Origin: Thioalkalivibrio sp. ALJ3
Lineage (GTDB): Bacteria; Pseudomonadota; Gammaproteobacteria; Ectothiorhodospirales; Ectothiorhodospiraceae
Reading direction: 5' to 3'
Assembly: GCF_000377205.1 (NCBI RefSeq)
Contig: NZ_KB897906.1
Coordinates: forward strand, 278,272 to 342,271
DNA: 64,000 nt
In this document: in pieces, positions 1,509 through 40,170 of the stretch
Numbering within the stretch: the stretch's first letter is position 1
Layout: every line of letters starts with the position of its first letter
Made by a program: the position numbers and the translations under genes
Notes under the pieces: generated by a model
What the model was told of the DNA's origin: nothing
Databases searched by the model: none
What the model saw: the letters and a program-made list of their open reading frames with translations, nothing else

Positions 1509-3381
1509 CCCGCACCACCAAGAGGATGCAAGGGCTGCGACGGCACAACGTGATCGCCGCCTGCATCGCGAGCGGCAGGCTCGGCAGGAAGCCGAGCGGA
1601 TCGCCGAAGACGCTACCCGGCGCCTGTATCGAGAACAGATCAAGCTCGCAACCATCCTGGAAGTCACGCGACTGGCCAATGCCAGCGACAGTCTGGAAGA
1701 CACCACGGCTCAGGGGCTGCAGCAGCTCGCCGCCCACACCGTCTGGAAGCGCGGCCATGCCCTTTACCGCAACCCGGAGGGACACCTGCGGCGGATTGCC
1801 GAGCTGAACCTCCCCGCACAGGATGGTGCGATCGAACCTACACCCGCAGGTCGGGTACTACTGGACTCGGCCAGCGGCATCGAAAGCCAGCTTGGGCTCG
1901 CTGCCCAATCGCCCAACGACCCGGTTCGCTGCTGTATCTGCAGCATCTATGTCCATGGCCATTGCTATGGCCTGATCGAGGCCTTCGCCGACACCCCGGA
2001 TATCGACCCGGACCTCAGCCGTGAGGTCATCGAGGGGATCGCCCAGGCACTCGGACATGTGTACAAGCGGGAGCACGACCGCAAAGTGATCGAGCACATG
2101 GCCTATTTTGATGGCCTCACCGGGCTGGGCAATCGCGCCCTGTTCTTCGACCGGCTCGACCTGGCGCTGCGGCGCGCCCGGCGGGCCGAGCAATGTGTGG
2201 CGGTTCTGGCTCTGAACATCGACCGTTTCCGCGACATCAATGACATGGTCGGCAAACAGGCGGGTGACCAATTCCTGGTAGCGCTGGCCAACAGCCTGCG
2301 CACCGTTATTCGCGACACCGACACTGCTGCGCGCATTGGTGGTGATGAGTTCGTTGTGGTGTTTGACGGGGTTGACTCCTCCATGGATGTCGAAGGGCTA
2401 TGTCAGCGCGTGCTGAATGCCCTGTACCGGGACTATTCCGCACACGTCCCCGAAGGCTTCGACCCACACATGAGCGCGGGTGTGGCGGTATTCCCCGGCG
2501 ACGCCCACGACGCGGAAGTGCTCACCCGCTGCGCGGAGATGGCCCTGCAACGCTCCAAGGGTGAAGGTGGGGCACGCCTTACGGTATACGATCCCGCTCT
2601 GGCGGAGCGCAGCGCGCGCCGTCGCGAATTGGAGCAGGAACTCCGCACCGCAGTGGCAAACGGCGAGCTGGTGCCCTGGTTTCAGCCCATCGTGGACCTG
2701 CCGAGCCAGCGCATTGTCGGCGCCGAGGCTCTGCTGCGCTGGCAGCGCCCCGGTGCACCCGGGCCTGATCAGTTTGTTCCTATACTGGAAGAACTCGGTT
2801 TGATGCTGGACGTTGGCGACCTGGTGTTGAATACCGCCTTGCAGCAGGCTGCCGACTGGCGCGCGTCCGGCCATGACTTCCAGCGCATCTCGGTGAACGT
2901 CTCGCCAGTCCAACTCAAACGCGACCACTTTCTAACGGTACTGGACCGTGCCCTGTCCGAAACCGCCTTGCCCGCCGACTGCGTCTGTCTTGAAATCACC
3001 GAAAACGTCTACCTCGCGGGAGACTCCAGCATCCGCGCCCGGATCGCCGCCGTTCGCGAGCGCGGAGTGCATATCGCGCTCGACGACTTCGGTACGGGAT
3101 ACTCGTCGCTGGGCTATCTCCAGTGGCTGCGACTCGACACGCTCAAAATCGACAAGAGCTTCGTGCAACCCCTTGGACAGGACCCTTACTACACGAATCT
3201 TGTGCGTTCCATCATTAGTCTGGCGCAAGCGCTGGACTTGCAGGTGACCGCCGAAGGCATCGAACACCCCGACGCGGCGGACATGCTGGCGGCCATGGGC
3301 TGCACCTATTGCCAAGGCTATTACTTTGGGCGGGCCATGCAGGCAGACGCACTCACCCCTCTACTGCCAAAATCCTGTTAG
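1501..3381 (+). CDS. GGDEF-EAL c-di-GMP enzyme, probable H-NOX effector
   Basis: Bifunctional-type c-di-GMP synthase/phosphodiesterase, predicted partner of the H-NOX protein just upstream. The frame is open back to 1309, but that region is H-NOX coding sequence. A TTG at 1501 overlapping the H-NOX stop gives 626 residues and implies translational coupling. Order: charged coiled-coil (about 5-50), GAF-like region (about 50-190), GGDEF with intact GGDEF at 280-284, EAL with EAL at 408-410, then the EITE, DDFGTGYSS and AEGIE motifs of active phosphodiesterases. In characterised systems H-NOX ligation changes the balance of the two activities of such a partner. The TAG stop is the first codon of a palindromic repeat element (3379-3560). 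Confidence 0.92.
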   Translation: MADPHHQEDARAATAQRDRRLHRERQARQEAERIAEDATRRLYREQIKLATILEVTRLANASDSLEDTTAQGLQQLAAHTVWKRGHALYRNPEGHLRRIAELNLPAQDGAIEPTPAGRVLLDSASGIESQLGLAAQSPNDPVRCCICSIYVHGHCYGLIEAFADTPDIDPDLSREVIEGIAQALGHVYKREHDRKVIEHMAYFDGLTGLGNRALFFDRLDLALRRARRAEQCVAVLALNIDRFRDINDMVGKQAGDQFLVALANSLRTVIRDTDTAARIGGDEFVVVFDGVDSSMDVEGLCQRVLNALYRDYSAHVPEGFDPHMSAGVAVFPGDAHDAEVLTRCAEMALQRSKGEGGARLTVYDPALAERSARRRELEQELRTAVANGELVPWFQPIVDLPSQRIVGAEALLRWQRPGAPGPDQFVPILEELGLMLDVGDLVLNTALQQAADWRASGHDFQRISVNVSPVQLKRDHFLTVLDRALSETALPADCVCLEITENVYLAGDSSIRARIAAVRERGVHIALDDFGTGYSSLGYLQWLRLDTLKIDKSFVQPLGQDPYYTNLVRSIISLAQALDLQVTAEGIEHPDAADMLAAMGCTYCQGYYFGRAMQADALTPLLPKSC

Positions 3382-3560
3382 GGAACACTGATCAATCCAC
3401 CAACCCCGAAGGGGCTCGGCCGCTCGTTCTTGATAACAACAAGCGCGGGAACAGCGTTGCGGCTCGCTTGCGCAGAATAACTGCACAGTGATCACTGCCT
3501 CTTTTTCGCACAAAAAAGCGACTCGTGCGCGCGCGGATACATTGATCAGTGCTTCCCTGG
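3379..3560. mobile_element. Palindromic MITE-like element, copy A (degenerate, short)
   Basis: 182 bp element related to three others here (18834-19080, 32763-33081, 39883-40170). Ends are inverted repeats: the left end reads TAGGGAACACTGATCAAT and the right end, read on the minus strand, CCAGGGAAGCACTGATCAAT. The interior shares blocks with copy B in the same orientation: GGGGCTCGGCCG, GCGCGGGAAC, a TGCACAGTGATCACTG-like segment and AAAAAAGCGACTCG. It lacks the left-hand third found in the others. The terminal TAG is the stop codon of the GGDEF-EAL gene. It carries no transposase. Confidence 0.8.
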
Positions 3561-3666
3561 AAACCCGGGACCTCGTCACAGCTTTCCACATGCGTCCCCG
3601 GGTATCCGCCATGGGGTTGTATGGAATCCCTATACTTTCTGCACATTACTCGCTCCGGAAATCGGC

Positions 3667-4452
3667 TTGCCAGATCCCGCCTCACCGCATACGGCCGACC
3701 ACGATCGGCTGCTCGACACCAATCGTCGTTTCTACAATGACTTGTGGAAAGACTCGCGCCTGGTGCCTCCCGATCAATTCAATACGTGGCCGCTCGTCTG
3801 CCGACTCAGCCGGGAAGGCTGCGAGCGGCTAGAAGTCGGGCCCGGAATGCGCCCACGACTGCCCATAACCGGCACTCACTTCGCCGACATCAGCGAACCC
3901 GCGCTGCGCACACTGCGAACCGAAGGGGGGCATACGGAGTCCGCAGTAATCGGCCACCTGCCCTACGAAGATGGTCGCTTCGACCTGATCTGCGCGCTCG
4001 ACATCATCGAGCACGTCGAGGACGACGAACAGGCCATGCGTGAACTAACGCGTGTCGCCGCACCGGGCGCGCGCATCCTGCTCTCGACGCCGCTCCATCC
4101 ACAGTACTGGACCCGTTTCGACGAGATCGTCGGTCACTATCGCCGCTACACGCCCAACAGCCTGTTCGCGTTGCTGGAACGCCACGGTCTTACCATCGAC
4201 CAGAGCGGCGTCTTCGGCATGAAGCCCCGCTCGTCACTCCTTACCCGCCTCGGCATGTGGTTCCTGCTGCATCATCGGGACACGGCCATGCATTACTACA
4301 ACCGTTATTTCATGCCGCTGGCCCTGAAACGGCAAAAGCCACTTCAGCTCTACCCGGGCATGATCCCGACCGAAGACGTGGGCGAGGTCTTCCTCGTCTG
4401 CCGCAAGGTCGCCTGCGCCGACGTTCGCCACCCGAGCGGGTTTCTTGAATGA
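3667..4452 (+). CDS. Class I SAM-dependent methyltransferase
   Basis: 261-residue methyltransferase of the Methyltransf_11 type. The SAM-binding motif I is LEVGPG (55-60) and a further acidic motif follows at ALDIIEHVED, the post-motif typical of this fold. The substrate cannot be read from the sequence; relatives act on quinones, lipids, sugars or small metabolites. The C-terminal third is rich in aromatic and basic residues and may form the acceptor pocket. The start is a TTG at 3667 directly after the repeat element; no earlier ATG in frame is convincing, so the start is tentative. The stop codon lies inside a 9-bp hairpin (4434-4460). Confidence 0.82.
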   Translation: MPDPASPHTADHDRLLDTNRRFYNDLWKDSRLVPPDQFNTWPLVCRLSREGCERLEVGPGMRPRLPITGTHFADISEPALRTLRTEGGHTESAVIGHLPYEDGRFDLICALDIIEHVEDDEQAMRELTRVAAPGARILLSTPLHPQYWTRFDEIVGHYRRYTPNSLFALLERHGLTIDQSGVFGMKPRSSLLTRLGMWFLLHHRDTAMHYYNRYFMPLALKRQKPLQLYPGMIPTEDVGEVFLVCRKVACADVRHPSGFLE

Positions 4453-4460
4453 ACCCGCTC
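4434..4460 (+). terminator. Hairpin over the methyltransferase stop codon
   Basis: Perfect 9-bp stem, GAGCGGGTT at 4434-4442 with AACCCGCTC at 4452-4460, and a 9-base loop. It overlaps the end of the methyltransferase gene. There is no clear T-run after it, so it may be a weak terminator or an mRNA-stabilising hairpin. Confidence 0.5.
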
Positions 4461-4505
4461 CCGCGGGTATTGTCGATGAAACAGGATCCTCACTAGGCTG
4501 CATCG

Positions 4506-39607: not shown

Positions 39608-39639
39608 CGGGAGAACACGCTGATGGGCGTGTTCTCCCG
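39608..39639. terminator. Strong 13-bp hairpin between two genes
   Basis: CGGGAGAACACGC (39608-39620) and GCGTGTTCTCCCG (39627-39639) form a perfect 13-bp stem with a 6-base loop. It lies between the small gene at 39645 and the glyoxalase gene. No T-run, so the type of terminator is uncertain. Confidence 0.6.
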
Positions 39640-39644
39640 CCCCG

Positions 39645-39854
39645 TTAGCGCGGCTTGCAGGCCAGCCCGTACTCGAAGGTATGGATCTTGAAGCCTTCGG
39701 GAAACGCCGCCTTCAGCCGGCGTTCGAACTCGGCGTAGATCTCGGCCTTGTGCTGCTGGACATCCCAGTCGCGGCTGTCGCAATCAACCCCCTCGACGTC
39801 CAGCTCCATGTTCAGCTCCAGATCCGGAGCCATTTGCAGTCGGATTGTCGGCAT
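39645..39854 (-). CDS. Small protein of unknown function
   Basis: 69 residues from the ATG at 39854: MPTIRLQMAPDLELNMELDVEGVDCDS, then a helical ERRLKAAFPEGFKIHTFEYGLACKP. No signal peptide. Acidic with two Cys. An AGGAGA precedes the start. Element copy D lies 29 bases upstream, so its promoter may be within or altered by the element. The family is not recognised. Confidence 0.65.
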   Translation of the reverse strand: MPTIRLQMAPDLELNMELDVEGVDCDSRDWDVQQHKAEIYAEFERRLKAAFPEGFKIHTFEYGLACKPR

Positions 39855-39882
39855 CTCGGTTCTCCTTCCGTTTCGCTGGGCC

Positions 39883-40170
39883 CTAGGGAGACCCTGATTT
39901 AATCGCGCGTCCGCGCTCGAGTCGCTTTTGCGTGGGAACAAGGCGCGGTGACTGCCGTGCAGTCATTCTGCACAAAGGAGCCGCAACGCCGTTCCCGCGC
40001 AAAAGCGGCCGAGCCCCTGCTTTCAATGGCTTGTGGGGTTTGTGCCCCCTGTTCCCCGATCCTGCGTTGCGCCGCTTGCGGGTAGAACCACTACCCGCTG
40101 CACGACGCGCCTTGTCTCGGAAAACAGGGGGCACCAACGCGGACGTGCGATTAAATCAGCGTCTCCCTAG
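39883..40170. mobile_element. Palindromic MITE-like element, copy D
   Basis: 288 bp with ends CTAGGGAGACCCTGATTTAATCGC and its inverse GCGATTAAATCAGCGTCTCCCTAG. Same orientation as copy C, but it lacks the TTGATCA-centred palindrome and a short ATTGATTC block. The right CTAG, on the minus strand, supplies the TAG stop of hppA (40167-40169). Other internal blocks (GGGTAGAACCACTACCC; AGGGGGCACCAACGCGG) are as in B and C. Confidence 0.88.

Follow-up and report, generated by a model that had tools for sequence, protein, structure and literature searches.

An IS5-type MITE of Thioalkalivibrio that duplicates YTAR targets and is frequently found on stop codons

Introduction

A 64,000-nucleotide stretch of the GC-rich genome of the soda-lake bacterium Thioalkalivibrio sp. 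ALJ3 (contig NZ_KB897906.1, positions 278,272 to 342,271), referred to here as the window, carries four copies of one palindromic element, and in each of them the 4-mer on the side of the adjoining gene holds the TAG stop codon of that called gene. The original prediction, made from the sequence alone, had pointed to this coincidence, which is confirmed by our reading of the copies together with the gene calls, and had proposed a mobile element with stop-codon targeting. The question raised by this locus is whether such an element chooses stop codons or is found on them for other reasons. We consider it highly probable, at about 0.87, that the four elements are copies of one miniature inverted-repeat transposable element (MITE) mobilised in trans by a DDE transposase of the IS5 family that is specific for YTAR (Y, pyrimidine; R, purine) and prefers CTAG, that their position on stops follows from target availability and selection, and that their arms were shaped by arm-to-arm copying.

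Two precedents bear on this identification. IS5 of E. coli, an insertion sequence (IS), duplicates Py-T-A-Pu, mostly CTAG, a tetranucleotide that is under-represented in bacterial genomes (PMC5493358). MITEPsy1 of Pseudomonas syringae, which probably derives from ISPsy2 of the IS5 family, uses CTAG or YTAA as its insertion site, and its movement was observed (PMC3189936). Given the Py-T-A-Pu duplication of IS5 and the precedent of MITEPsy1, the element can be classed as an IS5-type MITE, one that belongs to the genus Thioalkalivibrio.

Results

The element occupies at least 40 places in its own genome (40 of 117 BLAST candidates scored). From loci collected in this genome (G000) and in G021, G024 and G029, whose listed places were only partly taken, 131 distinct copies of 156–346 bp were paired, which are not fully independent of one another; a further 115 unpaired ends (duplicates included) lie outside this set. 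The copies carry no transposase gene and are too short for a transposase of 321 amino acids. Two end types are distinguished, with 101 copies of type A on both sides, 29 of type B on both sides and one mixed copy; type B was sought deliberately only in G000 and was by-catch elsewhere, so that the sampling favours type A. The two sub-families have a common core and differing arms. The consensus of 30 copies of 280 bp forms a near-complete Y-shaped fold of about −188 kcal/mol on either strand. Copy lengths cluster near 266, 280, 295, 310, 325 and 340 bp, and copies at orthologous sites in different strains differ by modules of ~15 bp at one to three places, the remainder being nearly identical (sets L034, L087 and L184; L132 and L230; L090 and L175). 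These differences may reflect module loss, conversion between copies or repeated insertion at the same site.

Identical 4-mers flank 79 of the 131 copies, namely CTAG (52), TTAA (17), TTAG (7), CTAA (2) and CAAG (1), and 78 of these 79 pairs conform to YTAR. No wider target consensus was evident by eye around the occupied CTAG when compared with other non-genic CTAG sites. Empty sites were sought in relatives ranked by identity over one stretch rather than by a tree. The one exact case concerns the copy at 18834: in G020 (L292), a single CTAG stands at the empty site within a stretch of 93% identity, and three other relatives end the gene with TGA. At the hppA site the element is missing from eight relatives, three of which read CTAA and five CTAC; two more distant relatives also align across this junction without the element, and a third has diverged too far for a judgement. 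On its hppA stop, G024 has a separate copy of 324 bp, in the same orientation as the 280-bp copy of G000, and the two are likely independent insertions. At the 32763 site, the element is absent from all four aligned relatives, three of which have CTAA or TTAA at the stop and the fourth neither. The single CTAG expected of empty sites was thus seen at 18834, whereas the relatives at hppA and 32763 read CTAA, CTAC or TTAA in its stead. The prediction of a non-autonomous mobile element inserting at CTAG without damage to the stop is borne out by the 131 copies, by the YTAR pairs, by the G020 site with its one CTAG and by an IS5-family partner in sister strains.

The partner was found in Thioalkalivibrio ALE14 (L160, same contig as G021:C30), where one type A outer end accompanies the gene of a 321-amino-acid transposase (L160:147-1112) on a contig that starts inside the partner element. 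The protein matches the IS5 family NF033581 of NCBIfam at 322.8 bits, for a cut-off of 140, and contains the domains DDE_Tnp_1 (PF01609) and DUF772 (PF05598). Relatives with 89–100% identity are present in five of 30 genomes of the genus (G010, in two pieces, G012, G021, G022 and G029), and partial or weak matches in three further ones. The six full IS copies measure 1169–1220 bp; their flanks are equal in four (TTAA, CTAG, CTAG and TAAG) and unequal in two. The MITE thus has a target duplication like that of its partner, and terminal inverted repeats that are related to those of the autonomous IS, not identical. In G029, a full IS5-family copy starts at the CTAG that closes a MITE copy (L245:1038-1352), which indicates that the duplicate of one target served as a new target.

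With at most two mismatches, and among the matches listed, the ends occur in 14 of 30 same-genus genomes (own included) and in none of 28 other relatives; they are also found, among the matches listed, in many Thioalkalivibrio strains and in assemblies of Gallionella, other betaproteobacteria, Chromatium, Thiocystis, Verrucomicrobiota, Clostridiales and Coriobacteriales. Outside the genus, paired ends bound elements of other lengths, mostly 131–187 bp. In Gallionella and other betaproteobacteria (L071, L077, L081, L094, L127, L174 and others), elements of 131–187 bp share the outer ends and have mostly YTAR flanks.

The relation to stops was measured by removing the elements by script and classifying each target, together with the other YTAR sites of the same DNA, with our own gene-calling script. 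Six of the 131 copies lay too close to a locus end, leaving 125, which divide into 43 on stops, 58 intergenic and 24 intragenic; the four stops out of four in the window are, in comparison, partly local luck. For the 48 intact CTAG copies the numbers are 29 on stops, 17 intergenic and 2 intragenic, against 46, 75 and 96 for the 217 other CTAG sites. When only non-genic sites are considered, stops account for 29 of 46 intact CTAG copies versus 46 of 121 other CTAG sites (odds ratio 2.8, p 0.005). After merging of sites, in which L037 and L167 were joined although their targets differ and they are probably not orthologous, the copies stand at 25:15 (odds ratio 2.7, p 0.01). When the intergenic class is limited to sites 100 bp or more away from any called start, the comparison is 29:8 versus 46:40 (p 0.015). 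What stands out is how strongly CTAG is preferred and how seldom intact copies occur inside genes; the stop excess is real but modest.

Other targets behave differently: the 17 TTAA copies comprise 1 on a stop, 15 intergenic and 1 intragenic, and the nine TTAG or CTAA copies 2 on stops and 7 intergenic. Stop-codon targeting as such is therefore weakly supported, the odds ratios of 2.7–2.8 speaking for it and these two groups against it. Copies without an identical YTAR pair, the mixed copy included, are distributed as 11 on stops, 19 intergenic and 21 intragenic. For 15 of the 24 copies scored as intragenic the edge of a called gene is near, its end at no more than 31 bp in 10 cases and its start at no more than 20 bp in 5; the remaining nine are deeper in a gene or, for L185, in overlapping calls. 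Outside the genus, where a rough codon model was applied, no stop preference is evident: two of eight CTAG copies of betaproteobacterial MITEs with the same outer ends are on stops, the other CTAG sites of that DNA being 6 stop, 49 intergenic and 46 intragenic, and neither of two CTAG copies of such MITEs in Gallionella is.

Comparison of the arms with the two IS ends over 18 bases separates the sub-families. A arms are nearer to IS end 2 in 200 of 202 cases (mean 2.7 mismatches versus 6.1), and B arms nearer to IS end 1 in 51 of 58 (3.4 versus 5.5), with seven ties. The two arms of one copy differ at 1.04 of 26 positions in A, versus 2.01 between copies, and at 2.5 versus 4.9 in B; random re-pairings never matched the real arm agreement (0 of 5000 in A, 0 of 5000 in B, kinship of copies uncorrected). 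In the alignment, which leaves out two copies with unclear orientation, one-sided changes at pairs common to the folds of both strands give 61 G.U to 59 A.C cells in A and 43 to 62 in B, besides 74 and 62 other mismatch cells, respectively, and matched double changes provide 20 pair states in A and 32 in B. The G.U to A.C ratio of the outer arms is 63:21 in A and 30:17 in B, one column in each sub-family giving 42 and 10 of these. Arm copying at the DNA level fits the G.U/A.C balance and the matched double changes better than selection on RNA. Template switching is known to homogenise inverted-repeat arms in yeast (PMC8604942). The like ends of A and B, together with the agreement of arms within copies, suggest that arm-to-arm copying has taken place in the DNA of this element. 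As a tentative history, with chances slightly short of even, a MITE with unlike IS ends would have been converted twice, once to end-1/end-1 (B) and once to end-2/end-2 (A), each form then spreading, with arms still being homogenised and stops serving as reusable safe harbours, as at hppA.

Discussion

The closest published counterpart is MITEPsy1, which is likewise non-autonomous, with IS5-family-like ends and a 4-bp duplication of CTAG or YTAA (PMC3189936). It measures 100 bp and has six copies in strain 1448A, whereas the Thioalkalivibrio MITE measures 156–346 bp, has tens of copies in its own genome and, unlike MITEPsy1 as described, combines a near-complete Y-shaped fold with two sub-families whose arms both resemble one IS end. 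IS5 of E. coli has the same 4-bp Py-T-A-Pu duplication, and the Thioalkalivibrio partner transposase is of its family; it is, however, autonomous and longer, whereas the MITE is devoid of a transposase gene and its partner was not found in its own genome. Repetitive extragenic palindromic sequences and bacterial interspersed mosaic elements (REP/BIME), which go with REP-associated tyrosine transposases (RAYT), are also extragenic palindromes behind genes, and Thioalkalivibrio is named in work on them, but their units are of 20–40 bp. REP/BIME palindromes are not known to carry 4-bp duplications. The literature searched on transposition and MITEs in Thioalkalivibrio, on stop codons and on quasipalindromes, consisting mostly of titles and abstract openings, contained no report of this element or of a stop bias of an IS5-type MITE, nor did we find in it a paper pairing 'IS5 family' with 'YTAR'. 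Neither the pair of like-ended sub-families nor the stop share measured here was found there.

The preferred reading can be laid out as follows. An IS5-family DDE transposase, presumably acting in trans, would cut at YTAR, with a preference for CTAG, and leave the duplicate that is seen on both sides of the copies. Any such target offers a stop triplet on both strands, TAR on the forward one and the complement of YTA on the other. Because YTAR holds a stop on both strands and is duplicated, the gene-side duplicate keeps the stop of a gene that ends in the target, with no need for the stop to be read as such. CTAG is strongly depleted, gene stops make up a large share of the sites remaining outside coding interiors, and insertions inside genes would mostly be lost by selection. 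Taken together, CTAG depletion and selection against genic insertions would place most CTAG insertions on stops without a transposase that reads stops; CTAG scarcity, a YTAR-specific transposase and the loss of gene-breaking insertions explain most of the stop share. Arm-to-arm copying, by template switching within the hairpin ahead of each new wave, would be the likeliest cause of the A and B forms.

The stop excess over other non-genic CTAG sites could also arise if an element behind a gene were useful, its stable hairpin acting as a 3' terminator or messenger RNA stabiliser and its insertions being kept by positive selection. The very stable fold agrees with such a role, as does the hppA stop, occupied in both G000 and G024 and empty in eight relatives. 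Both orientations are however found behind genes (28 with the T-arm first, 15 with the S-arm first), 9 of the 17 intergenic CTAG copies lie less than 100 bp from a called gene start, no T run was seen by eye at the element ends, no terminator scan having been run, and neither strand has a clear G.U preference; we regard this role as unlikely. Still less credit is due to an insertion process that actively picks stops, for instance via terminating ribosomes or transcription. The 29 of 48 intact CTAG copies on stops are in its favour; against it stand the low stop shares of TTAA (1/17) and of TTAG or CTAA (2/9), the lack of a clear base preference around CTAG relative to other non-genic CTAG sites as judged by eye, and the betaproteobacterial (2/8) and Gallionella (0/2) copies under the rough gene model.

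It is highly improbable that the element represents a conserved gene for a structured RNA of the kind of the Soda Lake RNA (smtA motif) of Thioalkalivibrio. The latter, in the same genus, is a large folded motif with covariation that adjoins smtA and purH (PMC11109978), and matched double changes are present in the element too; however, among eight genomes only G024 has a strong match near purH, and this is a MITE copy on the far side of that gene, the G.U and A.C cells are those given above (61:59 in A, 43:62 in B), and the window has no Rfam match at gathering cut-offs. The Soda Lake RNA was also rejected as a source of the core, the best piece from the purH neighbourhood being one of 23 bp with an E value of 0.008 in seven of the eight genomes (the gene taken for smtA is unverified), and selection as RNA found no support, there being no G.U preference confined to one strand and an outer-arm excess due mostly to one column in each sub-family. 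The MITE copy of G024 (L241:1019-1284) separates purH from the next gene called on its strand. A chance coincidence of unrelated palindromes with stops deserves the least weight, close to none: the cases in the window are only four, but they belong to 131 homologous copies with 78 identical YTAR pairs, target duplications and an empty site, and intragenic positions make up 2 of 48 intact CTAG copies versus 96 of 217 other CTAG sites.

Several observations sit less well with the YTAR-specific MITE that we prefer. Its own genome yielded no match to PF01609 or to the IS5 protein, and one IS duplication, TAAG, is not YTAR, nor is the CTAC read by five relatives at the hppA site. An identical YTAR pair is missing from 52 of the 130 AA or BB copies, and the 50 of these that could be classified comprise 11 on stops, 19 intergenic and 20 intragenic. 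Genes are in fact split in two cases, a purine/cytosine-type permease (L083:249-1806) and a pirin (L185:3737-4799), the two halves of each flanking a copy. Stops are commoner among the copies than in the non-genic CTAG background (p 0.005–0.01, with gene calls from our own script), and hence something beyond availability may act. Finally, we found types A and B by means of two end patterns of our choosing, mixed pairs being allowed, so that the nearest-end counts are partly a product of the search.

A simple rule takes the place of a coincidence here: the YTAR target holds a stop on either strand, and in a genome avoiding CTAG, stops account for many of the targets whose use does no harm. Stops are thus a common safe landing place for selfish DNA, and caution is advised before a function is assigned to hairpins directly behind genes. 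The end structure of A and B, for its part, constitutes a natural data set on arm homogenisation in palindromic elements.

Features of the window

The positions of the four copies and of their target duplicates are collected in Table 1. Inverted GGAGACGCTGATTTAATCGC-like ends with CTAG on both sides are found in the copies at 18834-19080, 32763-33081 and 39883-40170; the claim of inverted ends common to all four copies holds for these three and fails for the copy at 3378-3560, which is shorter and more diverged and has different ends. The automatic call of this last copy is one base out of register, and it was scored as intragenic in the counts; by eye it lies on the stop.

Table 1. Element copies and flanking 4-mers in the window; stops (TAG ends at 3381 (+), 18837 (+), 32766 (+) and 40167 (-)) are from a gene caller trained on Thioalkalivibrio DNA
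Positions	Strand	Feature	Remark
3378..3381	+	Gene-side target copy TTAG	Ends the GGDEF-EAL gene (called at 1549-3381) with its TAG
3382..3556	-	Type B copy, 175 bp	CTCGAG-type arm at right
3557..3560	none	Far-side CTGG	Probably a decayed target copy
18834..18837	+	Target copy CTAG	Ends the outer-membrane-protein-like gene (called at 18283-18837) with its TAG
18838..19076	-	Type A copy, 239 bp	Same GATGTAATCGCACGTCC variant in both arms
19077..19080	none	Second target copy CTAG	
32763..32766	+	Target copy CTAG	Ends the alpha/beta hydrolase gene (called at 31702-32766) with its TAG
32767..33077	+	Type A copy, 311 bp	Both ~15-bp internal modules present
33078..33081	none	Second target copy CTAG	
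39883..39886	none	Far-side target copy CTAG	
39887..40166	+	Type A copy, 280 bp	Commonest length
40167..40170	-	Gene-side target copy CTAG	Minus strand holds the TAG stop of hppA, called 40167-42209

CTAG is indeed rare, as had been stated, being ~4-fold depleted in the window (24 sites observed, where dinucleotide shuffles predict 96). Six of these 24 sites belong to the target duplicates of the three CTAG copies, and of the six window genes called with a CTAG end three have a copy on it. Pfam searches of the adjoining genes returned GGDEF and EAL, H_PPase (hppA, proton pyrophosphatase) and Abhydrolase_6, and for the outer-membrane-protein-like gene a sub-threshold match to OMP_b-brl (26.0 bits, cut-off 28.7).

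Element copies also mark the limits of the ALJ3 assembly, contigs of which break in or at a copy at the end of C1, at both ends of C2, at the end of C4 and at the starts of C3, C7, C8 and C9. In five loci (L066, L180, L182, L194 and L216), element ends abut one another.

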